Of a DNA stretch of 35,713 nt, positions 1,258 through 35,713 are shown piece after piece. A program made the position numbers and the translations under genes. Position 1 is the stretch's first letter, and each line of letters starts with the position of its first letter. The stretch covers positions 1 through 35,713 of IMG/VR virus record IMGVR_UViG_3300030106_006869; one strand, 5' to 3'. Source of the stretch: a virus. The notes beneath the pieces were generated by a model. It saw only the letters and a list, made by a program, of their open reading frames with translations, had not been told where the DNA came from and made no database searches.

Positions 1258-2104
1258 GATTAAGGCAGTTGGTATTATTGGAAATGGCTTTGTAGGGCAA
1301 GCAATAGGGTTTGGTTTTGTGCCGGTTCTTCCCGTACATGTTTATGACAAGGACCCACTTAGAAGCATGAACACGTTAGAGGAAACAGTAAACAACTCAG
1401 ACATAATCTTTGTGTCTGTTCCAACACCAATGAATAAGGATGGGTCCATAAATTTGGATATTGTAAGGTCTGTCCTATCAGACGTGCAAAGAGTGAACAC
1501 CAGAACTGATAATGTGGTAGTAATTAAATCAACCATAATACCCGGAACTACAAGATCTCTCAAAGAGGACTTCCATGACTTGAATTTTGTATTCAATCCA
1601 GAGTTTCTAACAGAGAGGCACGCTAAATATGATTTTTTAAATCAAGCAAGAATTGTTCTGGGTGGCTACAAGAATCACACACAGAGAGTTGCAGAGCTTT
1701 ATAGACTTAGGTTTAAGCATTGTAATATTATGGAAACAGACTTTAACACGGCAGAGTTTATAAAGTATTTTAATAATGTTTTCTTTTCTGTTAAGGTCGC
1801 CTTTGCTAACGAAATGAAGCTTATGGCAAGAAAATCAAATGTAAATTGGGATGAGGCCTTGGCTGGCTTCGCTGCAGACGGTCGTGTTGGTGACTCTCAC
1901 TTGAACGTCCCTGGCCCTGATGGTAAGTGGGGCTTTGGTGGCAGTTGTTTTCCAAAGGACATAAATGCATTTATAGACCATGCAAACAAGAAAGGCGTAA
2001 ACGTCAATGTGATTAAGGCAGCATGGCAAACGAATCTAGAAGTTCGGCCCGAAAAAGATTGGGAAAATCTAAAGGGCCGAGCAGTAGTAGAAGAAAAGGA
2101 GTAA
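1250..2104 (+). CDS. UDP-glucose/GDP-mannose dehydrogenase family, short form
   Basis: The N-terminal NAD-binding domain carries GNGFVG (residues 11-16), then SVPTPMNKDG, KSTIIPGTTR and NPEFLTERHA, all diagnostic of the family. The middle domain has EFIKYFNN and the catalytic-cysteine segment GGSCFPKD with Cys233. Family members oxidise UDP-glucose or similar sugars to the uronic acid in two NAD-dependent steps through a cysteine thioester. The protein is only 284 residues against about 390-450 for full-length enzymes: it ends just after the central helical domain and lacks the C-terminal UDP-binding domain. The stop is in clean sequence with the next gene's ribosome site beside it, so I see no frameshift. 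It may be a natural short phage form or use a partner for substrate binding (inference). GGAG at 1239-1242 supports the ATG. Confidence 0.87.
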   Translation: MSEIKAVGIIGNGFVGQAIGFGFVPVLPVHVYDKDPLRSMNTLEETVNNSDIIFVSVPTPMNKDGSINLDIVRSVLSDVQRVNTRTDNVVVIKSTIIPGTTRSLKEDFHDLNFVFNPEFLTERHAKYDFLNQARIVLGGYKNHTQRVAELYRLRFKHCNIMETDFNTAEFIKYFNNVFFSVKVAFANEMKLMARKSNVNWDEALAGFAADGRVGDSHLNVPGPDGKWGFGGSCFPKDINAFIDHANKKGVNVNVIKAAWQTNLEVRPEKDWENLKGRAVVEEKE

Positions 2105-15422: not shown

Positions 15423-15812
15423 ATGTCAGGTATATCACCAAAATTGCCCTTAGAGAGAGATGAGCAAGATGGCTTCTCGCTAAACAAAACTGTTATAGAA
15501 GCGGTAAAGCAAAATTTAAAAATGTTAGTGTTAACTTCACCCGGAGAAAGGGTAATGGATCCCGACTTCGGTTGCGGGATTCGACGTCTTTTGTTCGAGC
15601 CTGCTACCTTTGATGTGAAAGGGCAGGTAGAAAGTAGAATAAAATCACAGGTTTCAAGATACCTTCCGTTTGTAAACATTATCGATGTCCATTTTATTGA
15701 TGAAGGTGACCCAGTATCTTCTGGAGCGGCGGTCACAATACAAATACGCTACACAGTTTCGACACTAAGTAATGTCAATATTCTCGCAATAAGTGTCTCA
15801 GAAACTACTTAA
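15423..15812 (+). CDS. 25: Baseplate wedge protein, T4 gp25/GPW family
   Basis: 129 residues, the usual size for gp25-like proteins. NLKMLVLTSPGERVMDPDFG and the following CGIRRLLFEP give the family signature: the TxxGERxMxPxFG loop and the Rxx(L/F)FEP turn. Strand-rich C-terminal residues (AAVTIQIRYTV) complete the fold. In T4, gp25 is in the inner baseplate next to gp6 and gp53 and links baseplate to sheath; the fold is shared with type VI secretion TssE. AGGAGGAG at 15409-15416, at the end of the giant gene, is a strong ribosome site for the ATG. The gp6-like gene follows after 18 bases, the same order as in many T4-like marine phages. Confidence 0.92.
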   Translation: MSGISPKLPLERDEQDGFSLNKTVIEAVKQNLKMLVLTSPGERVMDPDFGCGIRRLLFEPATFDVKGQVESRIKSQVSRYLPFVNIIDVHFIDEGDPVSSGAAVTIQIRYTVSTLSNVNILAISVSETT

Positions 15813-15830: not shown

Positions 15831-17624
15831 ATGCCAAAAAAACTAGTTCCAATAAGGTATACAAACAGAGATTTCTCTTCAATTAGAGAGTCTTTGACAG
15901 AGCACGCAAGAAGATATTACCCAAATACTTTTAAAGATTTCAACGAAGCATCATTCGGAGCACTAATGATAGACACAGTTTCTTACATTGGTGACGTCCT
16001 GTCTTTCTATTTAGACTATCAGGCGAATGAATCTTTCCTTCAAACTGCAGCAGAATATCAAAACGTTCTGAAGCTATCAAGAACTCTTGGCTTTAAGTTT
16101 AACAAGTCACCATCTTCATATGGTATATGTCAATTCTTCGCTCTTGTTCCAGTGGTGGCTTCTACCGGCGCACCAGATATGAGATATGCCCCGCTTCTTA
16201 AGGCAGGATCTAGAGTGGCTACAAATTCAGACATATCTTTTACTTTGATAGAAGATGTTTCTTTTGAGAATACTGAAAATGAAATTGTTGTAGCGAAAGT
16301 GGATGAACAAACCGGAGCACCATTGTATTACGCAATCAAGTCAGAGGGGCAAGTTGTTTCGGGAGAGCTTCTAGAGCACACTGCTCCAGTGGGAGATTTC
16401 AGAAGATTCCTTTCAGTTTCAGTCCCAGGAACAAATGTGTCGGATATTATTTCAGTTACTGATGCTGAGGGTCACGAATACTTTGAGGTTGAGCACCTAT
16501 CTCAAGATACAGTTTTCAAGCCAGTAGCAAACGGAAATGCAACAAACGACTCAGTAGCAAACCTACTAAAGGCAGTCTCTGTGCCAAGAAGATATACTGT
16601 GGAACATCTCGACGATCGAACAGATTTACAGTTTGGCTTTGGTTCAGAGACAGAAATGGTAAGTGGCTCCATTGCTGATCCTTCAAATGTTGTATTAAAG
16701 CGACACGCAAAAGAGTTTATATCAGATACATCTTTTGATCCATCAAAGCTGACATCTACAGATAAGTTTGGAATAGCTCCAGCAAACACTACGTTGTCGA
16801 TAGTCTATCGCTCAAACACCAGCGATAACGTAAATGCTGGAGCAAATCAGGTTGTACGAGTGCTTGATGCAGACGTTGAATTTAACAACGTCACAACATT
16901 AGATGATTCTATAAGGGATTATGTCATACGGTCAATAGAGGTAACTAACGATGAGCCGATACTTGGGGATGTTAGTCTTCCTTCTGTCGATGAACTTAAG
17001 ACCCGCGCAATGGGCAACTTTGCAACACAAAACAGAGCAGTTACAAAACAGGATTATATCAGCGCAACATATGCGATGCCTGGAAAGTTTGGGGCAATAA
17101 AGAGGTGTACAATCTTTAAAGACGAGGATTCATTCAAGAGAAATCTCAATTTGTACATATTGTCCGAAAACTTGGACGGAGAGTTGGTGCTAGCCAGTAA
17201 AACTTTGAAATTAAATCTAAAAAGTTGGCTGAATAATGTTAGAATGATGAATGACACAATTGACATTTTAGACGCTCACATTGTCAATATAGGTATAGAT
17301 TTTAGTATAGTGGTAGATGATAACGCGAACAAGTTTGATACTTTGAGAAAGGCCTCAAAGGTTATAGAAGATACATTTTTGATTCACAAAGATATAGGTG
17401 AACCACTAGTTATATCAGATTATTTTAAGGCATTGAAAGACATAGAAGAAATAGTAGATGTTGTAGATGTTGAAATAGTCAACAAAGTTGGAGCACCATA
17501 TTCAGACGTTGATTTTGTTGTGTCTCGACACACATCTGCAGATGGCAGAGTTGTCACACCTGAAAAGACACAGGTCTTCGAATTGAAGTATCCAGATGTG
17601 GACATTAGGGGCACAGTTGTATAA
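15831..17624 (+). CDS. 6: Baseplate wedge protein, T4 gp6-like (baseplate J family)
   Basis: 597 residues, close to T4 gp6 (660). The N-terminal RYTNRDFSSIRESLTEHARR and the segment FGALMIDTVSYIGDVLSFYL, then DYQANESFLQTA (about residues 40-68), are highly typical of gp6-like proteins. RAVTKQDYISATYAMPGKFG (about 404-423) is the second conserved block, as in baseplate J proteins. In T4 two gp6 chains per wedge join neighbouring wedges into the inner baseplate ring. AGAGG at 15816-15820 precedes the ATG. The stop overlaps the ATG of the next gene (taATG). With gp25 this is the firmest anchor for a contractile tail. Confidence 0.92.
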   Translation: MPKKLVPIRYTNRDFSSIRESLTEHARRYYPNTFKDFNEASFGALMIDTVSYIGDVLSFYLDYQANESFLQTAAEYQNVLKLSRTLGFKFNKSPSSYGICQFFALVPVVASTGAPDMRYAPLLKAGSRVATNSDISFTLIEDVSFENTENEIVVAKVDEQTGAPLYYAIKSEGQVVSGELLEHTAPVGDFRRFLSVSVPGTNVSDIISVTDAEGHEYFEVEHLSQDTVFKPVANGNATNDSVANLLKAVSVPRRYTVEHLDDRTDLQFGFGSETEMVSGSIADPSNVVLKRHAKEFISDTSFDPSKLTSTDKFGIAPANTTLSIVYRSNTSDNVNAGANQVVRVLDADVEFNNVTTLDDSIRDYVIRSIEVTNDEPILGDVSLPSVDELKTRAMGNFATQNRAVTKQDYISATYAMPGKFGAIKRCTIFKDEDSFKRNLNLYILSENLDGELVLASKTLKLNLKSWLNNVRMMNDTIDILDAHIVNIGIDFSIVVDDNANKFDTLRKASKVIEDTFLIHKDIGEPLVISDYFKALKDIEEIVDVVDVEIVNKVGAPYSDVDFVVSRHTSADGRVVTPEKTQVFELKYPDVDIRGTVV

Positions 17625-19597: not shown

Positions 19598-22500
19598 ATG
19601 AGTTTAAAGAATCTTTTTAACAAAGCGGGATCGAACCATGTTCTTCCGCAATTAAATGTCAATGGCCTTCTTCGCGATGTTGAGTCTGGAAGGTATGTCG
19701 ACGAGTATGTTAAGAGAAAGATGCAGTTCGAGCCGCATGTTGACTATGCAACTGCGTCTAATTTTGCTAAGTTTGGTCTTGCCGAAGAGTATTATGATTC
19801 TTCTATAAGAAGAATATATCAAACATATCCATACGATGGATCTTCCTACGAAAAAATAAAGTGGATTAATGAATCTAACGGCCTGGATCTTCACGTATTC
19901 AACAATGGTTATCCGAGATCTCATGGATACGCCAAGTTTTCTCCATCCGGATGGGGCAGTAGAGTCTCTACATCTGGTAGTTATGGAAATCCTGCGACAA
20001 AAGAATACATCTATATAAAGGGTGGCCCAAATGTAGACAATATTTGGAATACAGCTAGTAACAGATCCTCAAATCTAGAGATCGATGGAAACAAAGGAAA
20101 CACAGTTGAGTTCTGGCTAAAGAAGGACGCCTATCAGTCGCTGACAAAGCGAGAGGTTCTTTTTGATTCGTGGACTACTGGGTCGTATGTTGGAGATCAC
20201 AAGTACGGACGTATGACCATCGAGCTTGACAGCAGTAATTCAGATGGAAACTCTCCGTGGGTAATAACATACAGATCAGGATCTGCAGGTATTAAGAACC
20301 TGTTTGTGTCTGGGACCGCCGGCCTTCACGCTAGTGCCTCTGACGGCCAATGGCACCATTACGCATTCACCTTTCAGAACACAGGAAGCCAAGTTAACTA
20401 TAGGATGTACATAGATGGTGAACTAAACCACTCTGTCCTTACAGGTTCTTCCGTTGGTAGCCTTAACACTGCAATAGTAGGTGCGATCGGCGCCCTCGTT
20501 GCAGGTAAAGATCTTGGCGATACAGGCACTCAAAAAGGCAGAGAGTCAGCAGAAACCCAAAATCCAGGCCTTGGATACGGAAAGCTTTCTGGATCTGTTG
20601 ACGAGTTTAGATTCTGGAAGACAAGAAGGTCGGCAAAAGACATTGGTCGACACTGGTTCACGCAAGTTCATGGTGGAACAAACACAGATGATCCAAATAC
20701 AGATTTGGGAGTTTACTATAAGTTTAACGAAGGTATAACCCTTACAAGCAGCATTGACAATATTGTTTTGGACTATTCGGGTCGCATAACAAATGGTGAT
20801 TGGGTTGGTTATGCTTCGGGTGCAAGAAGTACAAAGTCAGCAATGATACAGTCTTCAGCTTCTCTGACAGAGTTTGCTGATCCTATCATACACACTGAGA
20901 ACCCAAAGGTCAACAATTACATTGATGACACGCTAGAGTTTGGTCGCAATCACGATGTCAATAGTAACTCCTGCATTTACCACTCTTTTCCAGGCTGGAT
21001 AGTAGAAGAAGAGGGGCAAACCGGAGGAGAACTAAAGAGACTGTCTCAGATAATGGGAAGTTACTTTGACACCTTGTTCTTCCAGATTGAGTCTCTTGCA
21101 AAGCTTAAGCACATAAAGAACGAAGATTACGACAAGAAGCCAAACCCTTTTATGGATCGTGTCCTTGCTTCTGTTGGTTTTGACACTCCTGATATCTTTA
21201 TTGATGCAGATGTTTTGGCTTCTTTGGCTGGCAGAGACGAAGAGAAGGAGTTCGAACAAAGACTAGAAGATGTTAAGAACGTTATATATAGAAACATTTA
21301 CAATAACATAACTCACATCTATAAGTCAAAGGGAACAGAAAGAGCATTCAGAAACCTTATTCGTTGCTACGGCGTCGATGATGAATTGATACAACTAAAC
21401 ACATATGCTGACGGTGTTGACTATCCGGTCGAACAAAACTACAGAGTTGGTAACTTTAAGACAAAGTGTATCAACTTTAATCGTCCAGAGAACTTTAATG
21501 CATCTGTGTTTCAGTATAGCTCTAGTTTGGATCACTCAAATAATTCATCAGAATTTCCAGTCTCTGGTTACATAACTGGTGCACATGCTAATGATCCCAC
21601 GGTTGGACTCTCTTTTACAACAGAAGCAGAGGTAGTGTTCCCATTCCGACACAAGCCTAGATCAAAGCTGTACTTTGAAAGTCCTTTGTCTTCGTCTTTG
21701 TTTGGTGCACATACGGTTCTGGATAGCCATGGATCAAACCATGATTTAACTTGGCGCGCATCTGCAAAAGACTTTGCTAACTTTGAAGTTTATGCAGTTA
21801 AGCATAGAGACGACTCAAGACACGCTAGATTTGTAATTAAGTCTACTTCTGGAATTATATCTCCTATGGAGACAAAAACTTTCCATAATGTATATGAGGG
21901 TCAAAAGTGGAACTTTGCAGTTCGACTTGCGCCGAATGGAACTTTCGGAAGCACAATCTCAGGGTCTACAAATTCTTATAATATAGAATTTTTTGGTGTC
22001 AAGACCGACGCTGGAGAAACAGAGGATGAGTTCTTACTAACCAATTCCCTTACTAAGGAGCAAGGAGAAAGGTTTCATGAGAAGTCCAAGAGGCTCTACA
22101 TCGGCGCGCACAGAGAAAATTTTACAGGATCTGTAAAGACACGATCGGATGTTCAGTTTTCTCACTTGAGGCACTGGGCAACATACCTTAACAATGAGAC
22201 CATCAGAGCACACGCAATTGATCCAAAATCTTATGGTGTTGATCACCCAATGCGTAACGCTTATGCTTTCCAGCCTGGCCTTGATAACCCGGTTCCAGAG
22301 ATTGAAACGCTGGCACTTAACTGGGATTTTGGATCTGTAACTGGATCATCAAAGGGTGGAAATTTAGTGGTAGAGGATATCTCTTCTGGATCCTTCACTC
22401 ACAAGAGAGACTACGGTTGGATTGGAGACGTTATCGGCTCAAACCACCCAGGACGCGGAGTATTTTTCCCGGCCGAAACTACTGCTAGTGTAGCAGTGGC

Positions 22501-25500
22501 TTACCTCCAAACGGCCCGTCAGCAGCTACCAGAGAACGTGCATAGCACAAAGATGATCAACATTCTAACCAATGATGATAGAACATACACAAGAGAATCA
22601 AGACCTGTAAATCACTTCTTCTCCATAGAGAAGAGCATGTATCGAACAATATCGGAAGAGATGCTTGATATGTTTGCAACAATAAAAGATTTTAGCAATA
22701 TTGTTGGTGAGCCCGTAAACAGATATCGACCAAACTATAAGTCGATGGAAAAGTTAAGGCAGCTATTTTTCGAGAGAGTGGAAAACACACCAAGCATCGA
22801 GAAGTATTTAGAATTCTACAAGTGGATTGATTCTTCTTTGTCGATAGTCTTGGATCAGCTAAAGCCAGCTTCTGCAAACTTCTCAGAAGACGTCAGGACA
22901 ATGATTGAAAGCCACGTACTTGAAAGAAACAAGTATTGGTCAAAGATGCCAAATCTCGATTTTAAGACAGCAGAGCCAGTTGTCGATTTGGGAGGCCTCG
23001 CAGGCACCGATTACATGCTATATCATTGGAGTGCTGGTCACTCACCGCCACCTGAGTCTCCTCGACCACAAGACAAAAATCTTCTTTATTGGAAAGTGCG
23101 CGCAGAAAGGAGTAACTCTGAGATATCAACAGGAAACTCTGAAATTGATAAGGAAAGAGACACTCTAAGTAGAATAGCTCATGGGCACATCTCAGGGTCT
23201 ACATATGCTCGTCGAGCATTGTCTCGCCCTTATAAGGTAACAGCACACTTGCAGCCAGTTATTCACGCTGGTGACAACTTTCACTTAAACAAGAAGAAAG
23301 ACTTTTATCTCGGCACTACTAATCCTGGCGCGAAGGATTATATAAGAATCAGTGGTTCTGACGTTGACTTTGGAAAAATAAAGGAAATTACTCATCCAAG
23401 ATATGGAAACGGTCTAGGGTCTGAGGTGTTCGAGAAAAAGAGAGCAAACGCTTCGGCCGATATAAGCAATACAGGAAACGATCTTGACGCAGATATTGTA
23501 GCACCGTTTAGTATGTATAGTTGCTCGATAGATACTCCGGTTGACTATAAGTCAGAAATATATAGACACTTCAAGAAGAGTCTTGATATAACAAACTTGC
23601 ACTCTGATTCTTATGGTGATGACAGAGAGATACCAATACAGTCTCCATTTACACATCATTGGGTTGGCGGTCACGAACATCGACACCAGCACCTAAACAT
23701 AATGAGGCCTAAGAAGCTTGATACGGCAGAGAGTTTCCCGACAATGAGCCTGGACACTGCTGGAAGAAGATTCGAAGCATTCCACATTACAATGTCACAG
23801 GGGCAATTGTTTGTAACTTCTCCAAACTTGTACAAGTTAAACCTTGAGCCTCCTAATACGTTTAGTGTGTCGTTGACGTCTAGTGCCCACAATAGAGCTA
23901 GAATATTAAGAGAACCTCTCGCAAAGCGTCCTGTTAACATTAGAAACATAAAGACAACAGCGAGTCTGCAAGAGAAAGAAGTTGTACTTAATATTGGAAA
24001 CTATAAGCACAGCTACGAAATAGTTCAGGGTACGTCTGTAGAAGTTTCACCTGCATTCTTGATTAGAACTGGATCTGTTGAGCCAGTTGAGAAGACAAGC
24101 AACTCTCCTTTCTTTGTCGAGATTAATGAAAGAAGAAAGTTTGAGAGACCAAAGAGAAAGAACGTCTTTGTAAGTAGGTTCTCTGCACCTGGCGGACCAG
24201 AAACAGCGGGTGACAGCTTAGGTGGCCCTGGTTTGGACATAGCAACTAACCAGTATTCTATCTACAACACGATGAACTATAGAAACCTAATGCCTCGTCT
24301 GGCATTAAATGAGTGGTCTGTCGACAGAATGGGTGGATTTGGACATGCTCACAACAGCTCTATAACGTCTTCGAGCCCAACTGCTTCTTATCATAAGGTA
24401 AACAGTAATCCAATATATGTGGCAACTGGTAGCGCTGACACAGGACAAGAGTGCAAGCCAAAGTATGACAATCAATTTGTACAGCACCAGATCCCAAGAA
24501 CTGATCTTGGATATTCTTGGATTAAAGCGTCTACGATTGAAACGTCATGCAGTTATAACAGACTAGAGTCAGACTTTACGTATCCAAAGGCACAGTCCGA
24601 TGAGACGGTCTATCAGACAAATCTTGCAAATGCTGTTGATTTTGATTCACCAAGATTCCTTAGTGCATCATCAAGAGGCCTTCGTGAAAGCGAAGCCAAC
24701 AGATTGCTTTCTTACGGTGATGATCACGCACTCACCAATCATCCCGATCCGGGAGTCCCAACAGATTTCTTGGGATTGAACTCTATTATATACGAGAACA
24801 TCTCTGGAAGCAGAAACACTTTGGGTGATGTAGATATAGATCCTGAGGGAGGATTACTCACTGGCTCTATTGAGGCAAGCAAGAAGCGCTACACTCTCAA
24901 CCACATACTGTTAAACAGAGGAGCCTTGTACGGTCACCCATCTTGGAAGCAGATAAGAGCTGGCGATCATCCGGTGGCAAGGAAACTAAGAAAAGATAAC
25001 ATAATTACCATTGCTGTTCGTAGAAATGAGAAGAAGAATTCTTTCACACCTGCTCCTTTTGCCAATGGTGGCTACTCTTGGCCAGAGCACACTGACCACC
25101 GACGAGCAAGAAATGCAAGAACAGTCAGCGCACAGAGATATAGATTTACAGAATCTGCAGTAACTTCTAAGTATAAGCCACTAAGATCTGCAGATATGAT
25201 ATCGATTGTTGCAGGCGCAGCTCAGGCCTATGGGTCTTTTAAGGCTGCAGCAGAAGATAAGGGCCCGGGCAATAATTTTGTTGCAGGGAATAAGATAACC
25301 TACGGTAATGATATGGTGTCGTTCTCAAACCCAGAGCTTGTTAACTTGCTGCAAATAGGAGAGAGAGAAAAGGGAGACTTCCTTGGATCTAAGATTAGTC
25401 CTCACACTATTCAAACTCTATATTCTGAGACCATATTCCCAAGAGATGTAAATTCATACACATCTAAAGCCAGAGGGAGAGAGAATTTTGTAATTGACTG

Positions 25501-28500
25501 GTGGAGTACACTAAGAGACGACAGAACAAAGACAAACGTCCTAAACTCACAAAACACCAGCAGCGCCACTACTAGTATATGGCCACTCGACGCTCAGACA
25601 AATTTTGGCAAGAGCAGAGAGTTTAGCATCGGTGGCGACAACGCACCGGGCTCTACCGGCGAAGGTGAGTTGATGACAACGCACGGTTTGTTTAGGACAG
25701 GCTCTACAAGACATGCCCCAAGTGCTTCTGCTTTCTATGCAAGAAGGTTCCCGGAAACACCGATAAAGTACTCTATCGAGTTATTGGAGGAGGGCAACTC
25801 TTTCCCGAGTAGGAGTGCCGGATTTTACGTAGGGTTGCCAGGAAAAGCACAACGGGTCTTGGTGAGATACGCCAACAACGACACGGTATTTTCTACAGGC
25901 GACAACATAACCAAATATGCTAGTATAAAAAAGCAAGACAGAACTCCAGAGCAATTAGCATCAGCTTCTGTGGGTATTATAAATGCGGTATTTGATCCCA
26001 CAAAGAATAACACCTTTGATAGTTTTAAGGGAATGTTCACTGCTTCTATAGATCCAAACAATTCTCGAAGATGGTTTTTTAAGTATCTTGGAAGCTTTGA
26101 GAATGAAGACTTTGGCGTACCGCCGCTCGATGGAGATGACTCCAGAGGCCACCAGTCCGGCCGGCAGGGATTTATATCTTGGTACTATAGCCAAAACCAG
26201 CAAGATCCATACATGTACAATGCACTGAACTACATTGAAATGAGCAAGTATGTTAAATTCAAGTTGCATAATACGACATACTTGGGTGGAGCTGCAAAGT
26301 GGGAAGCTGGAGACCCATTCCCATACGATGGCTATCAAGCATGGGCAGAACAGATTAGATTGCTAGGTAAGGATTATTCAGTAATTCCAGAGTTTAGAAT
26401 TAGTGAACACATGTCCTATTATGAAGATAAGCAATCTAGTGATCCGTTCTACGAGTGCCCAATAAGCAGCCAGTTTTCATTAACAGGTGCAGCGGATGAT
26501 TATGTAGATAGCAGCAAGCCAGAATTCTTTAAGGTCATGGGCCACACTGACTTTATAAAGTATTTTGATATTGTTCAAGAAGATCATGAAGAACTTGGCA
26601 TGGTAGAAGATTCTTTGACACTTCGCTGTAAGGCGCTAAAGAAGTTCCTCCCTTACGAAGGGCTGTATCCTGCACAAAGAACTTTGCAGATGGCATCGTT
26701 GTTTAGTCGATCTTATGGTGATTTTATGAATCCCAACCCCATGGGGTCTTGGCAGACAGCACTAAAGCCTTTCTATGCTCCGGGTATTGCGTACAATTCT
26801 ATAAAGTCTGGTATAGCTGTCGACTATCCGATATACGAACCAACAAAGGATAGAGAGTTCAATAGGTTCTGTACTAGATTTAGAGCCAATGTCAGAAACT
26901 TTGTAGACATTGGTAGTGCTGAAAAGTGGGCATCCCTGTTTACGGGCTCTAGTTCTCCGGGAACCCCAGCAAGAAACAACTTTGATTCAGGGTCGTCAGG
27001 CATGCATCTGGATTCTGGATCAGTTGATGGTCGCGGAATATCTCTGTCAATGTGGTGTAATTTCTATAAGGATCCTGACACCAATGTCCCAACAAGCCCT
27101 AACCAGGCATCTCAAGAAACAACCTCTGGAAGCTTGGTTATGTTTGGGGACACTCACGCATTTCATAACCCGGAAGCAACAGGCATAGAGTTTAGAAAGG
27201 AAGGGGGCATGTTGGTCTTCGGTATTCACCACACCTCTTCTTATAAAGTGTGGAAAACCACGGGATCTTGCCTAACAGATAACTCCAAGTGGTATCACAT
27301 TGCCCTTTCGTATGAGTGGGGTAACTCGACGAACCCCACAATATATCTGAATGGTAACTCAATGGGGGTTGAATCAAGCGCTTCAAACGGTACTTTTGAG
27401 TTTGGTGGAGCCGAGGACGATCCAAGTAGAATGGGTACAACCATATTGAGCAGTTCTGGCGGACGAACAGACAGGTCAAATGATACTGCCAATGGAAGTT
27501 ATCGCAACAGGTCAAACTGCAGTATCGGAATTCACAGATACGAACACGACAAGAACGACGAGAAATCAAAATTGTACAAAGCGCTGCCAGTACATATAGA
27601 TGAGGTATCAATATGGAATACTCCGTTACCTTCTGCTGCTGTGACTGGGCTGTATGGTGGAGGAATTTCGGGATCTCGTGGCCCATGGGTACCAGAGTGG
27701 TGCGTGCCTTCTTCTTATCGATCATCTTTGATAGGTTGGTTTAGAATGGGTGATGACACCGGGTATGTGCACGATGAATCGCACCCATCGTCATCAATGA
27801 CAGACCATCTGTACATGTTGAATAGGGCATCGCCAGCACCTAGAACCCACATAGAAACAAACATGTCAGGTGTGTTTTCTGGATTTACAGATGTCTGGAC
27901 GGAAGTTGAGAAGACGGAGTCGTCCGGCGTCGGTTGTTTTACCAACGGTGGAAAGTACCAGAGAGGCGGAGGCATCAAGGACGTCAGAGAGTTAGAAGGA
28001 TCCCCAGCAAGCTATTTGAGCCCAGACTCCAGTAGAAAGATTGCACTTACGGGCGCACTTATGTATCCGTCATTTATTACTGGTTCAAGATGGAATGAAA
28101 CGCAAGATAAGGGTATACCAAGAATCGGGTCTGCGAGTTGGGGCGTTTCCAGAGCTACGATGTTCGGAGAGGATACTCTAGATAATCCACGGAGAACCAC
28201 ACTGAAACTCGTCCGAGTTCACCAGAACAACTGGTGGGGTAGAGGACAAAAGGCACCACACGGAATAAATGCCGTTACCAGAGTTCCTTTTGAAGCGATT
28301 ATCGATCCAAAGATTTACGCACCAATAAACCTCAAGACAACCGCTGGTGGTAACTTTGTTGTATATGATAATGAGCCTCATGCAAGTGCAAGTTTGCATG
28401 CTGCAAATTGGACAAGAAATGTAAATCATACAGATCACTCGTACCAAACTTCAAGTTGGGGTACTCCGATAAACTCTAATCAAATAACCTCAAGTTTTAA

Positions 28501-30394
28501 TATGGATAGAGTTAATGCAAACAGATCGAACTTCGACCAATACAGCTTGGCTGCAAACAACTTCTTTGCAGAGTCTATGAACTTTTTCCTTAAAGATGGG
28601 CACGGAACAGTCTTGGCAACAAACGACAGACTGGAAGAACAGGTCGATCTGAAGTCAACTTACAAGATGAGAATAAAATTGTTCAGAGATTCACAGGGCG
28701 ACTTCCCAATGTACAACAGGGCTTCAGCATTTGGTCCACCTGTTGACGCAGGAGATGAAGGGTTCACGCAAGAGAAGTTTAAGCATGGTCAGTATGTCCC
28801 AGCCGGCGGCGGTGATCGAGGAGTAATGATGAATGCTTGGGGTTATGCTCCGTTTACTCCGCCACATTATGATGGATTTGCAGAAGTAGAGTATTCGTTT
28901 AGTCCTAGTGTGTCGGCATCATACACAAAGATAAGTGACGTACTAGAAAGAATCTCAACAGCACTTTCAGGAAACCACATCAAGTCCAACAGAATGACAA
29001 ATATTACAGGCTCTTGGCCCGGACTTGATTTCTTTGGAGGCCAGACAAATTCCGACATGGTTTCAGACGCATCGCTGATAACTACTTCAAGTCTCAACAA
29101 GTCAACTTCTATGCAGTTGTCGGCGAGCTTCTACGGAATGGGTCTAGAAGATAGAAGCATTGTACCAGTCTTTGAGAATACAAAGGGAAATCAAACTATA
29201 ATGAGAGATTTCTGGGCGATACAAACAAAGTTTGAGTGCCCGACATTCGACTTTAGAGCTGTTTCAGCGTCAACGCCAATACCATTAGGGCTTACAAAGA
29301 CAATAGGTATGTGGCATCAGAGTCCAAATAACGTGAATGAATCTCCTATTCAGATACAGATTATGCCACCTGATAAGGATTCTGGAGCCAAAGATCTAAG
29401 CACGCTTCTGGGTCTTTCCTTCCTTGAAGGCGGAATAAGAAAGCCAGAAAAGAAAACAAGAAAGACTGGTACTCTTGCAGATACCAGAACAATCAAAGAG
29501 GCAGTCATTGCTGTTCCGTTCATGGAAGAAAAGGGAACAGGAAAGAGAAACTTCTTCTCTCTAAGAAGGCCAGAGGTTTACAAGGCTGTTCAAAATGCAG
29601 GATATAGTGACTACAAGAAGGAGCTTATTGATCTTGTAGAGTTTAAAGATGTCAAGCAACCTAAGAAGGGCACCCTACCACCAACGCCTGCAGCTATGGA
29701 AAAACAAAGAAAGGTGATCGAGGTCCGTCCGTCTATCCAATCAATGGTCGACAAGATGTTGAATTACGTTATACCTCCAAAGATGAACTTCTTGAAGTAT
29801 AACGACAGAACAACTGGAAAGTATATCGAGCCTTTTGTCATGTATGTTTTTGAGTTTGAGCACACCTTGAAAAAGAAAGATCTTGCAAACTTGTGGCAAA
29901 ATCTGCCACCCGACATTGCTCTGAATGATTTCCACAATGACGAGGATGATACTCTCAAGGAAGAGGCAGTAGTGTCACATCAGTTGGGTGGCGAGATGGA
30001 TCTGATGTCAGGAAAGCTTAACAAGGACGTTAAGTGGCTTGTGTTTAAGGTCAAGCAGAAAGCACAATCAAATTACTTTAAGAAGATAGAAAGAGACAAG
30101 CTTCCTCTGGACCATCCGGGCCGTAAATTGTCCGTCGAAGATGACATTTATGAGTATGGATTTAACTGGCCATACGATTATTTCTCACTGATTGAACTAG
30201 TTAAACTAGACGCTGAAATTGGATTTGTGAAGAAAGAAGATGCAGCAGATCCAGTGCCTCCGGAGGACAGAGTTGAGGTCGTGCGAAAAGCAGGTTTGTT
30301 AGAATCGGTTTCTAAAGCAAAGGACACAAAGGATGATCCACGTCCAGAAATTAGAATGCCGTTCATGAACATAATATCAGATGAGGATGAGTAA
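19598..30394 (+). CDS. Giant baseplate/tail protein with three LamG-like domains, 3598 residues
   Basis: Layout by residue: about 165-385 a LamG/concanavalin-like domain (NTVEFWLKKD, DGQWHHYAFTFQN, GSVDEFRFWKTRRS); 480-605 a baseplate-type helical region (NNITHIYKSKGTERAFRNLI) recalling P2 gpI/T4 wedge proteins; 670-895 a second, looser ConA-like region (KWNFAVRLAPNG, RLYIGAHREN); 2390-2420 a block APGIAYNSIKSGIAVDYPIY; 2475-2725 a third LamG domain (GISLSMWCNFY, WYHIALSYEWG, VHIDEVSIWNTPL, SLIGWFRMGDD); and a C-terminal domain ending NWPYDYFSLIELVKLDAEIG plus an acidic tail. LamG folds usually bind glycans. Its position suggests a greatly enlarged gp7-like wedge or peripheral baseplate protein (inference). 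There is no protease or lyase motif. The ATG directly follows the preceding stop, with no strong Shine-Dalgarno. Confidence 0.75.
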   Translation: MSLKNLFNKAGSNHVLPQLNVNGLLRDVESGRYVDEYVKRKMQFEPHVDYATASNFAKFGLAEEYYDSSIRRIYQTYPYDGSSYEKIKWINESNGLDLHVFNNGYPRSHGYAKFSPSGWGSRVSTSGSYGNPATKEYIYIKGGPNVDNIWNTASNRSSNLEIDGNKGNTVEFWLKKDAYQSLTKREVLFDSWTTGSYVGDHKYGRMTIELDSSNSDGNSPWVITYRSGSAGIKNLFVSGTAGLHASASDGQWHHYAFTFQNTGSQVNYRMYIDGELNHSVLTGSSVGSLNTAIVGAIGALVAGKDLGDTGTQKGRESAETQNPGLGYGKLSGSVDEFRFWKTRRSAKDIGRHWFTQVHGGTNTDDPNTDLGVYYKFNEGITLTSSIDNIVLDYSGRITNGDWVGYASGARSTKSAMIQSSASLTEFADPIIHTENPKVNNYIDDTLEFGRNHDVNSNSCIYHSFPGWIVEEEGQTGGELKRLSQIMGSYFDTLFFQIESLAKLKHIKNEDYDKKPNPFMDRVLASVGFDTPDIFIDADVLASLAGRDEEKEFEQRLEDVKNVIYRNIYNNITHIYKSKGTERAFRNLIRCYGVDDELIQLNTYADGVDYPVEQNYRVGNFKTKCINFNRPENFNASVFQYSSSLDHSNNSSEFPVSGYITGAHANDPTVGLSFTTEAEVVFPFRHKPRSKLYFESPLSSSLFGAHTVLDSHGSNHDLTWRASAKDFANFEVYAVKHRDDSRHARFVIKSTSGIISPMETKTFHNVYEGQKWNFAVRLAPNGTFGSTISGSTNSYNIEFFGVKTDAGETEDEFLLTNSLTKEQGERFHEKSKRLYIGAHRENFTGSVKTRSDVQFSHLRHWATYLNNETIRAHAIDPKSYGVDHPMRNAYAFQPGLDNPVPEIETLALNWDFGSVTGSSKGGNLVVEDISSGSFTHKRDYGWIGDVIGSNHPGRGVFFPAETTASVAVAYLQTARQQLPENVHSTKMINILTNDDRTYTRESRPVNHFFSIEKSMYRTISEEMLDMFATIKDFSNIVGEPVNRYRPNYKSMEKLRQLFFERVENTPSIEKYLEFYKWIDSSLSIVLDQLKPASANFSEDVRTMIESHVLERNKYWSKMPNLDFKTAEPVVDLGGLAGTDYMLYHWSAGHSPPPESPRPQDKNLLYWKVRAERSNSEISTGNSEIDKERDTLSRIAHGHISGSTYARRALSRPYKVTAHLQPVIHAGDNFHLNKKKDFYLGTTNPGAKDYIRISGSDVDFGKIKEITHPRYGNGLGSEVFEKKRANASADISNTGNDLDADIVAPFSMYSCSIDTPVDYKSEIYRHFKKSLDITNLHSDSYGDDREIPIQSPFTHHWVGGHEHRHQHLNIMRPKKLDTAESFPTMSLDTAGRRFEAFHITMSQGQLFVTSPNLYKLNLEPPNTFSVSLTSSAHNRARILREPLAKRPVNIRNIKTTASLQEKEVVLNIGNYKHSYEIVQGTSVEVSPAFLIRTGSVEPVEKTSNSPFFVEINERRKFERPKRKNVFVSRFSAPGGPETAGDSLGGPGLDIATNQYSIYNTMNYRNLMPRLALNEWSVDRMGGFGHAHNSSITSSSPTASYHKVNSNPIYVATGSADTGQECKPKYDNQFVQHQIPRTDLGYSWIKASTIETSCSYNRLESDFTYPKAQSDETVYQTNLANAVDFDSPRFLSASSRGLRESEANRLLSYGDDHALTNHPDPGVPTDFLGLNSIIYENISGSRNTLGDVDIDPEGGLLTGSIEASKKRYTLNHILLNRGALYGHPSWKQIRAGDHPVARKLRKDNIITIAVRRNEKKNSFTPAPFANGGYSWPEHTDHRRARNARTVSAQRYRFTESAVTSKYKPLRSADMISIVAGAAQAYGSFKAAAEDKGPGNNFVAGNKITYGNDMVSFSNPELVNLLQIGEREKGDFLGSKISPHTIQTLYSETIFPRDVNSYTSKARGRENFVIDWWSTLRDDRTKTNVLNSQNTSSATTSIWPLDAQTNFGKSREFSIGGDNAPGSTGEGELMTTHGLFRTGSTRHAPSASAFYARRFPETPIKYSIELLEEGNSFPSRSAGFYVGLPGKAQRVLVRYANNDTVFSTGDNITKYASIKKQDRTPEQLASASVGIINAVFDPTKNNTFDSFKGMFTASIDPNNSRRWFFKYLGSFENEDFGVPPLDGDDSRGHQSGRQGFISWYYSQNQQDPYMYNALNYIEMSKYVKFKLHNTTYLGGAAKWEAGDPFPYDGYQAWAEQIRLLGKDYSVIPEFRISEHMSYYEDKQSSDPFYECPISSQFSLTGAADDYVDSSKPEFFKVMGHTDFIKYFDIVQEDHEELGMVEDSLTLRCKALKKFLPYEGLYPAQRTLQMASLFSRSYGDFMNPNPMGSWQTALKPFYAPGIAYNSIKSGIAVDYPIYEPTKDREFNRFCTRFRANVRNFVDIGSAEKWASLFTGSSSPGTPARNNFDSGSSGMHLDSGSVDGRGISLSMWCNFYKDPDTNVPTSPNQASQETTSGSLVMFGDTHAFHNPEATGIEFRKEGGMLVFGIHHTSSYKVWKTTGSCLTDNSKWYHIALSYEWGNSTNPTIYLNGNSMGVESSASNGTFEFGGAEDDPSRMGTTILSSSGGRTDRSNDTANGSYRNRSNCSIGIHRYEHDKNDEKSKLYKALPVHIDEVSIWNTPLPSAAVTGLYGGGISGSRGPWVPEWCVPSSYRSSLIGWFRMGDDTGYVHDESHPSSSMTDHLYMLNRASPAPRTHIETNMSGVFSGFTDVWTEVEKTESSGVGCFTNGGKYQRGGGIKDVRELEGSPASYLSPDSSRKIALTGALMYPSFITGSRWNETQDKGIPRIGSASWGVSRATMFGEDTLDNPRRTTLKLVRVHQNNWWGRGQKAPHGINAVTRVPFEAIIDPKIYAPINLKTTAGGNFVVYDNEPHASASLHAANWTRNVNHTDHSYQTSSWGTPINSNQITSSFNMDRVNANRSNFDQYSLAANNFFAESMNFFLKDGHGTVLATNDRLEEQVDLKSTYKMRIKLFRDSQGDFPMYNRASAFGPPVDAGDEGFTQEKFKHGQYVPAGGGDRGVMMNAWGYAPFTPPHYDGFAEVEYSFSPSVSASYTKISDVLERISTALSGNHIKSNRMTNITGSWPGLDFFGGQTNSDMVSDASLITTSSLNKSTSMQLSASFYGMGLEDRSIVPVFENTKGNQTIMRDFWAIQTKFECPTFDFRAVSASTPIPLGLTKTIGMWHQSPNNVNESPIQIQIMPPDKDSGAKDLSTLLGLSFLEGGIRKPEKKTRKTGTLADTRTIKEAVIAVPFMEEKGTGKRNFFSLRRPEVYKAVQNAGYSDYKKELIDLVEFKDVKQPKKGTLPPTPAAMEKQRKVIEVRPSIQSMVDKMLNYVIPPKMNFLKYNDRTTGKYIEPFVMYVFEFEHTLKKKDLANLWQNLPPDIALNDFHNDEDDTLKEEAVVSHQLGGEMDLMSGKLNKDVKWLVFKVKQKAQSNYFKKIERDKLPLDHPGRKLSVEDDIYEYGFNWPYDYFSLIELVKLDAEIGFVKKEDAADPVPPEDRVEVVRKAGLLESVSKAKDTKDDPRPEIRMPFMNIISDEDE

Positions 30395-31344
30395 TGTCGT
30401 TTTTTAACAAAAAAGAAGAGGTAATGGAGATACAACTTACTCAGTACGGTAGGTATCTTCTCTCTAAGGGTAAATTTAAGCCTGTTTTTTATGCGTTCTC
30501 TGACGATGAGATCCTTTATGATAGTTCCTATGGAGAAAACAAGACAGAAATAAAAAAGGAATCACAACAAAGAATACAAGAAGACACAATAAGGGTAAGG
30601 CCTCTTTATGATAACGAAAGTTCAGAGATAAGAATACAAAGACTTAATCAGCATATCGCAGGTGCAAGCACAGACGAGGAAGCAAACGCTCGACTGAACA
30701 GTATGCCGGCCGATTCTTTGTATGGAAACGATCTTGTAGATGATTCTCTAATGGTGCCCGATGATCGAAAACTCGTCAGAAACCTAATAGGAAGTTCTGA
30801 AATTGGAAACAAATATGCTGCTTCTTGGTCTGTGTCAAGTCTTAACGACCAGGCTTTTGAGCTTCCAATATTCTTAAGTGCATCTGGTCCAAACATAGGC
30901 ATGAGAAGACCACAAGTAAACATGATCGTCGATTATGATCTGGAAGTAAAAAACTTTACAGAGGACGAGACATTTGTATTTGATGAATACGTAGATCAAG
31001 ACGGCACAGAGTCTGAAATAAAATTTGTAGACGGCGTAAGCCTCAGTATCAACAAGGGTCAAATAGTTCTCCACATAGGAGAAGACAATGTGGGCTACAC
31101 CGATGATGGTTTTGAGATAGAGTTTTTCACAGTAGAAGACCAAGAGGAGATAACCAGAGGGGGCACAACAGAGAAGGTAGAAGTATTAAGTTCTCTATAT
31201 GTTAACCGCCCTGGTATCGATGCTGCTACAAACTTGCACACTTATTTTGAAGTTCTTTTTGATAATCAAGTCTCAATCTCTAGGGACTATGATTTTGAGA
31301 CATATGTCATAGATGAGCCAACTGATGAGGAGTTCTGCGACTAA
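30394..31344 (+). CDS. Conserved-type phage structural protein, 316 residues
   Basis: The N terminus, FNKKEEVMEIQLTQYGRYLL followed by SKGKFKPVFYAFSDDEILYD, is a block I recall from many marine tailed-phage structural proteins; its function is not known to me. The rest is acidic and beta-rich, with a helical patch at about 75-130 (ADSLYGNDLVDDSLMVPDDR) and a C terminus rich in Asp/Glu (YVIDEPTDEEFCD). It has no signal peptide or membrane segment. GAGGA at 30383-30387 and a taATG overlap with the giant upstream gene support the start. It probably sits on the baseplate or fibre base between the LamG giant and the polycationic protein; this comes from its place only. Confidence 0.7.
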   Translation: MSFFNKKEEVMEIQLTQYGRYLLSKGKFKPVFYAFSDDEILYDSSYGENKTEIKKESQQRIQEDTIRVRPLYDNESSEIRIQRLNQHIAGASTDEEANARLNSMPADSLYGNDLVDDSLMVPDDRKLVRNLIGSSEIGNKYAASWSVSSLNDQAFELPIFLSASGPNIGMRRPQVNMIVDYDLEVKNFTEDETFVFDEYVDQDGTESEIKFVDGVSLSINKGQIVLHIGEDNVGYTDDGFEIEFFTVEDQEEITRGGTTEKVEVLSSLYVNRPGIDAATNLHTYFEVLFDNQVSISRDYDFETYVIDEPTDEEFCD

Positions 31345-34300
31345 TGGCAAAAACAAAAGTATACACCAGGCGAACTCAAATAATTGCAGATTTTCTGCCA
31401 AATGCTCGTTTCCGCAGAATAACACTAGAAACACCAAGAGTCGACTCTCTGCCTTCACCACGAGGACCTGCACCAAATCCAGGCATTACTTTTGATGAGG
31501 ATACAATGTCTTTATTTGTTGACTTAGAAATAGACAACGTCATAGATGACGCTGCAGCTCGCCTAGCCCGAGGTGACGTCTTGGCTAAAGAATCTGGCGA
31601 CATAGGACAGCCAGACAAAGACGAAATTCAAAGCAAATTTGACGAAGCTTTAAAAGTTTGTGTTCTTGTCGGAACCACCCCTCTTGCGGACAACGTTTTA
31701 AAAAGAGTGCTAATAAGAAGTGGTGGATCTTTTCAAGAAAGAGTCAGAAGTTATAAAGGCATTAATAATATTACAAACTCTCACACAATCAAACAAGCAC
31801 TCCAGTCTTTGGTGGCGTCTGTTCCCGGAGAAATACACCTTAAGACGTCCATCGCCCGCCCAGTAGATGGGCAGCAAAGCCTAGACTCCTCGATAGAGCA
31901 TATGAGAACTTTTGACAGCAAGGGCAACGCAGTTTTTAGAATGCCTATATCGTTTGATGTACAAGGTATACCTGCAAATCCCGACAGCCTTTGCGTGTAT
32001 GCCTTTACGTTTGTGGACTTTGATGTGTTTGATATTGAAGTCCCTCCGGATGAGCTGGCCTGGCTAAATAGCCTCTATGGTAGAATGGTTTACAACAAGA
32101 TCATTGAAAACGGACAAACCGCAGCGTTCTCTATGCAACTACTAGAAGAAAATGGTACCCCATGGACAGGCACATATCATCAGATGGAATCCGGGGGATT
32201 CATGACCGGCCGAAATCATAGCGATCGTTCGAAGCCTTTGACGCAAATAATGGTCCCAAACTTAAAGGTCCAAGATTTTCGAGCATTCAAGAGGTCTGAA
32301 AAGGACCTATACATACCGCACGGCATGCCCAGTTTCTTGCAGGCTGACATGAAAACCAAATTTCTAAAAGATAAGCGAGACAATCATTTTAATTCTCGCT
32401 TAGAAATAGAACACGACCCAGTAAGAGGAAATGTTGAGTTTGAATTTGTAATAGATCAAGAGCAAATACTAAGACAAAATTCCAGATTTGGATCAATATA
32501 TGATAAATTACCAAATGGTACAAGATACAATGTGTTGCGACCAAGGGATTATTTTAGATTAGTCAATGTAAAAGTCCTAAGAAGAAGAGTCACAGAAAGA
32601 AACTTAGGAATAAACTCTCTTGGGCTTCCGGCCAAGGATGTCTTCGACCGTGAAGCTCCGCTTACTGTGGTTGCTGAGACAGGCGAGCCCCACCGTATTG
32701 GAAGTCACCCTCGCGCCTCTGTAGACACTAGTGAGTTTGAAATGCAGAGAAGACTGGAAAAGGTCTTCGATGAAGGGGATCTTTTGATACGAAACGACAC
32801 AAACACCAGTAGCATCTCTGATGAGCCCTATTCTGAATTGGCAGAGTCAACAAATTCTGATTCATTTGTTGAGTGGTTGTCCGAACAGGTTTCAACGCCC
32901 GTGCCTCTAGATGGACTAAAGACTTTGCCTTTTCCGTTTTATCGAAACATAATAGGATCGGACCTTGGGCTGATGAGTGTACATGACGGTGTTTATCAGT
33001 ACGGAATAGAGCTTACGTATGAGGACGGGATTGAAAAATATCTAACCGAGATCATGCAAAATTTGCAACGCGAAACAACAAAGCTAGAAGAATATTATAA
33101 CGAATGTGTAATCCCAGTCACTTCTGTTGGGTATGCTACGAGATCTGGACTATCAAGCCCAACAGCACAAGAGATAAATCCGGACTACAGATCACGAAGA
33201 ATACAAAAGACAGACAGTCAAGGAAACTATAATCACATAAGAAGGGCATTTTCTCCAGATTTTATAAGTTATGCAAATACAAAATATGATTTTAGAAAGA
33301 TGGTTAGTGCATATTTTGACGTTGTAAATGTTGTTCACGCAGATGCTCAGCTTAGAGTGGGCAGCACATCTATCGTTGATGAAGAAGCAGAACCAAGATT
33401 TGATTTTGATACTGTAATGTCTTTGCTGATGCCTAACAACTCAAGACCCGAACAGGTGCTAGAGATATTAGGATCCTTTCAAGAGATGGCAAGGCTATTA
33501 TCAGACATCACCGATACTGATTTAATTAAAAGCGCAGCAAATGTAAGCCTTGTTCGTGGAGATAGATCGTCTTCTGGGCGAACTCCGACAATGATAACTG
33601 TACAAAAGTGGTACTCAGACGTGGATGATTACGTAGACGCCACTGCCAGAGAAGAGCCTTCTTTTGATTTCTTGGGCGAAAACATGCTTATGTTAACTTT
33701 GCCAACTTTTACAACAGTGGCTTCAGTCGAGTCGACAGCAGTAGAGCCGACCTCTTTGCAGTTGCCTAGTCTTTTTTCTCCTTCGCCTGACACGACACCA
33801 AAGGCCACATCACCAAGAAAGCAACACGGCCAAAAGAGTTTTACGCCTGCTCAAGTTGCAGAACGCGTGGCTACTGAGATGGCAAAGTTTGATACAGATT
33901 TCGGAGAAACAAAGTACGACAATTCTCCCGCATCTTTGACATTTATGAGTTTTAACATTCCGGGCCCTTCGCCAATAAAAATCTCCTTCGCGCCAGAAGG
34001 TAAAGAGGTCTTTGGCAGCCCAGAAGTGAAAGAAGACCTAATCATCAGATATAGGTCTCAAAGATCTAGAAGGAATCGTCGAAAAGCAAGAACACAATTC
34101 CCTAGGAGAATAGAGCCCTTTAAGGTTATGGATATGGTTCTTCGAAGATCGAAAACATTGAAAAAGAAATCTCTCGGAAGAGTTCGCCCACTTGTCTTGG
34201 GCAAGCCTACTAGCAAGTTCACAAAGAGAAAAGGCAGAATTAAAAAGCCCAATATTTCAATAATGGAAGCAATGAAAAAGACTCTAGAAACAGAATTAGT

Positions 34301-35651
34301 TTCACAAGCGGGTCATGCTATTTTTGTAAGGGCTCCAAAAAAGATTCTTAAAAAACTTGCGACCGTGGACTCAATAAAGAGCTTGTGTAACGAGACTGCA
34401 AATGAACCAAGACCATTGATTGATTTCGAATTAGACCTATCAGAAGAGACTAGTCACGAGAACGAAATAACAGACAAGTCTATCGCTGTTGCTGAGACTA
34501 TTAGAAAAACAGCCGAAAGCAAGATAGAAAAAAAGAAAATGATAAAAAAGGTCGCTATATCGAAAATAAGAGAAACAATAGAATTCAGCCCTCCAGCGGA
34601 AGTAAGAAAGTTACCAACACGAAGAAGGAGAAGAACACGTCGCGACGCACCGAAAAAGAAAAATCCACCAGCTACTGCAGCTGGGTGGGCTCGTGGCGCA
34701 GCTGCAGCAAAGCAAAAGAAAGAAGAAATAAAGACATTTCCAGATCCAACTCCGGTGTTGGTAAAAAAGAAAACATTGGATCCTCCAATGCAGGTTTTAA
34801 AATTGGCTGAACCCGGTCCATCATTAGGTGCAACAGAGTCAAGTGCCCCTTCATCTTTGTATGGCTCAGTCATGAAGATACAAAAACTAGATGATTTTAA
34901 GAGAGATGACAGTAACCGTCCAATATTGTCTGCCCCTATTTACAAAGAGGTGACAGTAGCAGAAGTAAAGCAAGGACTGCCAGAGGGCAAATATAAACTA
35001 GAAAGCTTTGAGAGCGTAGAAATGGACATCACGCCGGCAGTTGTGTCTGTGATGAAGCCTGTAAGGTTCAAGATAACAAAAGAATCAAAGCCTCCAGTTC
35101 AGCCGGCAAAAAAGCCTGAACCAAAATCTGTTATAGCAACTGCAATAAAAGAGCAAAAGAAAAAGGAAAGAACCGAGAGAAATCGAAGTCCAGAAACAGG
35201 AAAAGTGAGAAATACAAAAGTACAAAAGTCTAGTCGAATTATTGCAAAAGAAGAGCAAAAAGAAAGCGCAAGAAAGATTAGAGAAGCGAAGAACAGAAGA
35301 CAGGACGCTCCAAAGAAGCCGAAAAGCAATAGCAGAGCAGAAGCTAAAGCGGCAGCCAAGAAAGACGCACACAGAAGAGCGATGGCGAAAAAGGAGGCGG
35401 CCAAGCAGGCTGCACAGAGAAAGAACGCAAAGCGCGAAGCTGCTGACAGGCGCCGCGCAGAAAAGGTAGAAGCGTATAAAAACGCCAAAGCAAGCAAAAA
35501 AGGTCGCAGAAAGTCTAAGACAAAACAAAGTAAACCAATAAATATAGTAAAGGGTTCCGTTTCTGCAGCTCGACTTCCGATATCGCCAATGGGTGGTGGT
35601 AGTATGGGAGGCTTCGGAGGCGGAGGCTTTGGAGGCGGAGGAGGTTATTAA
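31344..35651 (+). CDS. Large structural protein with cationic, glycine-ended tail, 1435 residues
   Basis: Two unlike halves. Residues 1 to about 830 look like a folded structural protein with mixed alpha/beta segments (VYAFTFVDFDVFDIEVPPDE, RYNVLRPRDYFRLVNVKVLR, VYQYGIELTYEDGIEKYLTE). From about 890 on the chain is strongly basic and low-complexity: RSRRNRRKAR, then TRRRRRTRRDAPKKKN (about 1090-1105), and a histone H1-like Ala/Lys/Arg stretch at about 1320-1400 (AKAAAKKDAHRRAMAKKEAA). It ends in a glycine run (GGFGGGGFGGGGGY) like the glycine-rich tips of phage adhesins. No family is recognised. It may be a fibre or whisker protein whose tail binds polyanions such as lipopolysaccharide or sulfated glycans (inference). 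GAGGAG at 31327-31332 supports the ATG. Confidence 0.7.
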   Translation: MAKTKVYTRRTQIIADFLPNARFRRITLETPRVDSLPSPRGPAPNPGITFDEDTMSLFVDLEIDNVIDDAAARLARGDVLAKESGDIGQPDKDEIQSKFDEALKVCVLVGTTPLADNVLKRVLIRSGGSFQERVRSYKGINNITNSHTIKQALQSLVASVPGEIHLKTSIARPVDGQQSLDSSIEHMRTFDSKGNAVFRMPISFDVQGIPANPDSLCVYAFTFVDFDVFDIEVPPDELAWLNSLYGRMVYNKIIENGQTAAFSMQLLEENGTPWTGTYHQMESGGFMTGRNHSDRSKPLTQIMVPNLKVQDFRAFKRSEKDLYIPHGMPSFLQADMKTKFLKDKRDNHFNSRLEIEHDPVRGNVEFEFVIDQEQILRQNSRFGSIYDKLPNGTRYNVLRPRDYFRLVNVKVLRRRVTERNLGINSLGLPAKDVFDREAPLTVVAETGEPHRIGSHPRASVDTSEFEMQRRLEKVFDEGDLLIRNDTNTSSISDEPYSELAESTNSDSFVEWLSEQVSTPVPLDGLKTLPFPFYRNIIGSDLGLMSVHDGVYQYGIELTYEDGIEKYLTEIMQNLQRETTKLEEYYNECVIPVTSVGYATRSGLSSPTAQEINPDYRSRRIQKTDSQGNYNHIRRAFSPDFISYANTKYDFRKMVSAYFDVVNVVHADAQLRVGSTSIVDEEAEPRFDFDTVMSLLMPNNSRPEQVLEILGSFQEMARLLSDITDTDLIKSAANVSLVRGDRSSSGRTPTMITVQKWYSDVDDYVDATAREEPSFDFLGENMLMLTLPTFTTVASVESTAVEPTSLQLPSLFSPSPDTTPKATSPRKQHGQKSFTPAQVAERVATEMAKFDTDFGETKYDNSPASLTFMSFNIPGPSPIKISFAPEGKEVFGSPEVKEDLIIRYRSQRSRRNRRKARTQFPRRIEPFKVMDMVLRRSKTLKKKSLGRVRPLVLGKPTSKFTKRKGRIKKPNISIMEAMKKTLETELVSQAGHAIFVRAPKKILKKLATVDSIKSLCNETANEPRPLIDFELDLSEETSHENEITDKSIAVAETIRKTAESKIEKKKMIKKVAISKIRETIEFSPPAEVRKLPTRRRRRTRRDAPKKKNPPATAAGWARGAAAAKQKKEEIKTFPDPTPVLVKKKTLDPPMQVLKLAEPGPSLGATESSAPSSLYGSVMKIQKLDDFKRDDSNRPILSAPIYKEVTVAEVKQGLPEGKYKLESFESVEMDITPAVVSVMKPVRFKITKESKPPVQPAKKPEPKSVIATAIKEQKKKERTERNRSPETGKVRNTKVQKSSRIIAKEEQKESARKIREAKNRRQDAPKKPKSNSRAEAKAAAKKDAHRRAMAKKEAAKQAAQRKNAKREAADRRRAEKVEAYKNAKASKKGRRKSKTKQSKPINIVKGSVSAARLPISPMGGGSMGGFGGGGFGGGGGY
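35607..35644 (+). repeat. 15-base tandem repeat coding Gly-Gly-Phe-Gly-Gly
   Basis: Unit ggaggcttcggaggc (35607-35621), a second copy with one change (ggaggctttggaggc, 35622-35636) and a partial third (ggaggagg). It codes the glycine-rich end of the 1435-residue protein. Confidence 0.85.
35637..35644 (+). promoter_or_regulatory. Shine-Dalgarno formed by the glycine-codon repeat
   Basis: GGAGGAGG ends six bases before the ATG at 35651, so the last glycine codons of one gene serve as a very strong ribosome site for the next. Confidence 0.65.
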
Positions 35652-35713
35652 TGAGTAATTGTACACCACCGGGCGCTGGCGGCGGAGGCGCCCCGGACCA
35701 ACCGGGCGGCTTC
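35651..35713 (+). CDS. Start of a Gly/Pro-rich protein (cut by window end)
   Basis: The ATG overlaps the stop of the preceding gene (taATG) and has an excellent ribosome site. Only 21 codons are visible: MSNCTPPGAGGGGAPDQP then GGF. The Gly/Pro-rich, flexible start is similar in character to the glycine end of its neighbour and could belong to another fibre or adhesin protein. Too little is present for any function. Confidence 0.6.
   Translation, partial: MSNCTPPGAGGGGAPDQPGGF

Follow-up and report, generated by a model that had tools for sequence, protein, structure and literature searches.

A long basic C-terminal region with a glycine/aromatic tip on a baseplate-region protein encoded by a viral contig from IMG/VR

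The window analysed here is a stretch of 35,713 nucleotides within the 46,421-base virus record IMGVR_UViG_3300030106_006869, and its last nucleotide is followed by 10 N (contig 35714-35723), which lie in the gene after the one under study. The genes and parts given below with start..end coordinates lie on the plus strand. Homologues of the baseplate wedge proteins gp25 (15423..15812) and gp6 (15831..17624), both identified by Pfam/PHROG matches, are followed in order by a gene for a 657-aa protein, by a giant gene whose 3598-aa product has a Laminin_G_3 match (gene 0, 19598..30394), by a gene for an acidic protein of 316 aa (gene 1, net charge -36, 30394..31344), and by gene 2 (31344..35651), which encodes 1435 aa. 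This arrangement recurs in many uncultured IMG/VR contigs found via gp6, as a block composed of a LamG giant (3-5 kaa, with variable and sometimes Gly-tipped tails), an acidic protein of ~310-400 aa, gene 2, and a protein of ~600-1170 aa; in this virus, gene 2 occupies the position that defines its family. The original prediction of a baseplate-region structural protein fits both the upstream gp25 and gp6 homologues and the conserved gene order. Upstream of the tail genes, window 409-2104 encodes homologues of a nucleotide-sugar epimerase and of a UDP-glucose/GDP-mannose dehydrogenase, and a 2864-aa ORF occupies 6825-15419, ahead of gp25. The gp6 matches include marine cyanophages, and the fold matches include a protein of an "uncultured marine virus"; judged from relatives of this kind, the virus is apparently marine. 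A gp6 scan of genome contigs found no relative and thus gave no clue to the host.

The N-terminal part of the gene 2 protein (residues 1-892, 31344..34019) is the conserved core of the family, with a predicted mixture of beta strands and helices, a net charge of -28 and a K+R content of 11.0%. Residues 893-1435 (543 aa, window 34020-35648) have a net charge of +78, with 25.6% K+R, 11.2% D+E and 10.1% Ala. When the residues of the 1435-aa protein were shuffled 2000 times, the best 543-aa window averaged +36 and never exceeded +63. Similarly, the most basic 100-aa window of this protein has a charge of +28, and the runner-up among the contig genes checked has +16. The basic tail is therefore genuine and unusual for its contig. 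Sequence comparison also indicates that the reading frame of this region is real and coded, because an identity of ~32-39% to the nearest clade spans parts of it. Two antisense ORFs (34454-34873 and 35085-35669) were set aside: nothing independent supports them, and they are probably mirror images of purine-rich codons.

The tail is not uniform, and its richness in Lys, Arg and Ala is discontinuous over residues 893-1435. In the AlphaFold2 model, a basic and mostly disordered stretch (residues 893-1160, 34020..34823), with a local acidic patch of net -6 at residues 1001-1050, precedes a small beta domain (1177-1244). A second basic, mostly disordered stretch (1249-1330, 35088..35333) then leads to a lone, 61-residue cationic helix (1331-1391, 35334..35516; net +17) and to the Gly tip. 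The beta strands are mostly predicted at pLDDT 83-91 and the helix at ~91-96; most of residues 820-1435 outside the domain and the helix is below 50. The enrichment in Ala is mainly limited to residues 1301-1390. Thus, of the more than 500 Lys/Arg/Ala-rich residues with a Gly-Phe end that had been described, the overall basicity and the Gly/aromatic tip hold, but a folded domain and an acidic patch interrupt the run and Ala is concentrated near its end.

On moderate evidence, the beta domain is probably the C-terminal domain conserved across the family (residues 1166-1248, 34839..35087). In profile-profile comparisons, residues 1100-1260 gave P 0.0016 (with a probability of only 16%) and the domain-containing block 1128-1288 gave 0.0025, while blocks lying outside the domain gave 0.23-0.83. 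A MAFFT alignment placed the domain at the same position; an HMM search alone for the conserved block in this protein stayed below threshold. Because profile-profile comparison, MAFFT and AlphaFold2 place the domain at ~1166-1248, the "tail" would consist of a basic linker, a conserved domain and a basic extension. A fold search with the C-terminal half returned transthyretin-like beta sandwiches (Z <4) and long-helix matches, both of which are common arrangements and were set aside.

The helix has no heptad hydrophobic stripe: its hydrophobic moment is 0.03-0.23 in 18-residue windows, and its strips are mainly charged residues and Ala. Having no hydrophobic face, it appears unsuited to coiled-coil packing. 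It is not a balanced single alpha helix either, with 2 acid-to-base i,i+4 pairs vs 11 same-charge basic pairs over its 61 residues. The suggestion that the tail could form a long helix is thus borne out for residues 1331-1391, but much of the remainder is predicted to be disordered; likewise, the check for disorder and coiled coil found the former over much of the tail but not the latter.

The nearest relatives, reached by direct search together with weaker matches, form a clade of four (L099, L100, L101 and L102) whose 1333-aa proteins share 43-47% identity with the gene 2 protein, are also basic and end in GGGGKGY, but lack the helix; for the core, identity to this clade is 46-47%. Iterative profiles extended the family to proteins of ~740-1435 aa at the same gene position, including one (L089, 950 aa) that is counted by position only. 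Their conserved C-terminal domain follows the pattern VEYLxGY...PxWkxLT...LCRL...YNxYFil, and distant members often end soon after it. A first scan with the N-terminal part had returned no relatives, which were reached via gp6. The family has no match in Pfam, PHROG or PDB sequences; one member has a weak match (E 0.005) to a PHROG "minor tail protein". A tblastn search of phage records with the gene 2 protein gave no match, and Microcystis phage Mel-JY01 and Flavobacterium phage immuto, the isolated phages whose gp6 is nearest, contain no detectable copy of the gene 2 family. No description of such a tail was found in the portions of the literature covered by a text search.

Structural comparison of the core model with BFVD identified seven viral proteins (A0A1B1IWS3, A0A1B1IV14, A0A516LBR8, A0A1B1IUS7, A0A516MB65, A0A516M7F3 and A0A0F7LC34; E 2e-31 to 9e-13), six with no listed name and one called "uncharacterized". 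Their whole-length TM-scores are low, which could reflect a flexible arrangement of the domains or a poor prediction of them. Against the PDB, the best matches of the core were antibody domains (Z 8.2), read as a generic beta sandwich, and no phage baseplate protein appeared among the fold matches listed for this low-confidence core model.

Only close relatives are strongly basic, and for this reason the tail looks lineage-specific, more like an appendage in rapid change than a conserved machine. Over the last 150 residues, this protein has a net charge of +33 and its L099 counterpart +25, and the values of the other 26 members surveyed lie between -29 and +13. Distant relatives have a near-neutral or acidic charge, and several of them have no sequence beyond the conserved domain. 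Homologues lacking the charge bias, which had been named as evidence against the prediction, therefore exist at a distance, but the nearest clade keeps the bias. Since the distant members do without the charge, it is not essential to the core role of the family. The tail after the domain ranges from 0 to 215 aa across the family, and tails of the LamG giants are variable too. Between L099/L100 and L102, the tail shows 8 changes (6 synonymous and 2 non-synonymous; dN/dS 0.10), a value compatible with selection over few sites, and the basic insert shows zero changes of either kind. Separately, the family genes at L099:9998-13999 and L100:1956-5957 differ at 196 nt in their first half and are identical from codon 741 on, a pattern that looks like within-gene recombination.

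The gene 2 protein ends in GGGSMGGFGGGGFGGGGGY, and its last 20 residues (1416-1435, 35589..35648) form the Gly/aromatic tip MGGGSMGGFGGGGFGGGGGY, part of which is encoded by a 15-bp tandem repeat present in 2.3 copies. At least 6 Gly in the last 30 residues were found in 8/28 family proteins, 8/29 LamG giants and 3/98 other genes (Fisher P 2.5e-4 and 3.2e-4), with a threshold that was picked after the tips had been seen and sequences that are mutually related. In another virus, the LamG giant (gene 0 of L088) has the C-terminus TGGGGGGFTGGGGGGFTGGGGGGGY, encoded by a near-identical DNA repeat. The recurrent feature is thus a hypervariable low-complexity tail with a Gly-rich tip, on the gene 2 protein or on the LamG giant. 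A strict complementary split between the two was rejected, as L110 and L123 carry Gly-rich ends on both, and tail lengths of the two proteins are not anticorrelated (rho -0.20, P 0.38).

The next gene of this virus encodes an acidic insert of ~95 residues (~-19 per 100 aa), low in complexity and GC-rich, at about 9420-9680 of L002 (contig 36420-36680); L099 has no such insert at the equivalent place. In a set of 22 viruses, the more positive the last 500 residues of the gene 2 protein, the more negative the next gene product tended to be (rho -0.51, P 0.015 uncorrected); the first 500 residues showed no such correlation (rho -0.07). The correlation reached rho -0.56 after relatives were thinned, and P was 0.10 without the three most basic members. 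Because ~10 charge pairs were examined, in sequences related to each other, it counts as a lead; no correlation was seen with the gene 1 product. The run of N (L002 8715-8724) lies within this next gene, and the ATG frame before it and the long frame after it disagree; the length of the gap is therefore probably not true, and the TTG start of the 1168-aa ORF is probably an artefact. Farther along, L002 15829-17030 encodes a protein of 221 aa that matches a DnaJ domain weakly (below the Pfam cut-off), and next to it a short protein whose likeness to a RuvC-like nuclease was judged by eye only.

Our preference, which is tentative, is that gene 2 belongs to the baseplate/tail-fibre block of a contractile-tailed virus and that its tail is a flexible cationic tether for an acidic partner. 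An ancestral protein would have had the N-terminal core and the small C-terminal beta domain. The linker ahead of that domain and the extension behind it may then have lengthened in this lineage and turned basic and mostly disordered, with the cationic helix and the Gly-Phe/Tyr tip as parts of the extension. Such a tail, if exposed on the particle, would stick to polyanionic partners through its charge, with the tip adding weak aromatic and glycine contacts. The first candidate partners would be acidic neighbours in the baseplate, chiefly the product of the next gene with its acidic insert, and the second would be polyanions of the host envelope. A tether is supported by a charge far beyond that of shuffled sequences, the conserved gene order, the domain inside the tail, a helix that has no hydrophobic face, a nearest clade that is also basic with a Gly-Tyr tip and a low tail dN/dS (on few sites), the charge correlation and the acidic insert. 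Against it count the number of pairs examined for the correlation, the relatedness of the sequences and its weakness without the most basic members, the distant homologues that do without the basic charge, and the lack of a solved homologue, in a protein known here from sequence and prediction. A broader version is decidedly unlikely: two nearby baseplate-block proteins would carry interchangeable, hypervariable, disordered tails with Gly-aromatic tips, and here the polycationic tail would pair with a co-evolved acidic insert, as an electrostatic, disordered "glue" in or around the contractile-phage baseplate.

After the cationic tether, the order of preference places host adhesion and then little-constrained filler. 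For the former, which we consider rather unlikely, an exposed basic tail and a sticky Gly tip would help adsorption by binding LPS or acidic polysaccharide, and their position facing the host would explain their quick variation. The hypervariable length and charge of gene 2 tails, the similar variability of the LamG giants, the recurrence of Gly-rich tips on these two proteins and few other genes, and the lectin-like LamG domain of the neighbouring giant all agree with this. However, the charge is not conserved, the position of the tail in the virion is assumed, Pfam, PHROG and further sequence searches revealed no likeness to a known receptor-binding family, and the ionic strength of seawater screens electrostatic binding. 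Growth of low-complexity sequence at termini and linkers, tolerated by selection and with no specific binding job, would account for the tandem repeat in the tip DNA, for the locally higher GC content of the helix/tip region and of the acidic insert that the next gene encodes, and for the large length variation among homologues; it is unlikely, given that the nearest clade, with its 43-47% identity, has retained the strong one-sided charge, that the dN/dS of the tail is ~0.10 (though from 8 changes only), and that the Gly tip is enriched at just two genes.

Two further explanations are much less probable. The tip, as distinct from the basic tail, might exist solely as a source of a Shine-Dalgarno site: its codons contain AGGAGG and run into a TAATG stop/start overlap (35639..35653), a likely ribosome-binding site of the next gene, reading GGA GGA GGT TAT TAATG here and GGA GGA TAT TAATG in L123. 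However, most other tips are encoded by GGC/GGT codons that contain no site of this kind, and L099 has it after the stop codon; this reading was already weakened and is very improbable. Least probable of all is a nucleic-acid-binding tail, for DNA or RNA, that would touch the genome end or act in the infected cell. The Lys/Arg/Ala-rich helix and the basic disorder recommend it by composition, which is also the sense in which "histone-like" stands, but Pfam contains no nucleic-acid-binding family that matches, even at E 0.1, and the gene lies in the baseplate region, with no obvious contact to packaged DNA.

Neither Pfam nor PHROGs nor, by sequence, the PDB includes this family, yet it is present in many uncultured viral contigs beside giant LamG proteins. 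If its tails are charged, sticky tethers, they would document contacts driven by disorder in a contractile baseplate and, as a fast-changing part, would be worth a look when uncultured viruses are linked to hosts.

Among known systems, the unnamed viral proteins of BFVD resemble the core model in structure, with no function or name attached. Residues 1301-1391 resemble Lys/Ala-rich histone H1-type tails in composition, but the gene 2 protein has no linker-histone or other nucleoid-protein match, and residues 893-1435 include a folded conserved domain. The gp38 protein contains polyglycine sequence. The gene 2 protein likewise has Gly-rich sequence in a tail-associated context, although as one 20-residue tip only and with no adhesin family match in PHROGs or Pfam; the gp38 tail-fibre adhesins of T-even phages are described as the receptor-binding tip (PMC12892980). 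Finally, although the genes between gp6 and gene 2, and the gene 2 protein, match no known wedge protein by sequence, the locus resembles a T4-type baseplate block in that gp25 and gp6 homologues lie, in order, ahead of gene 2.
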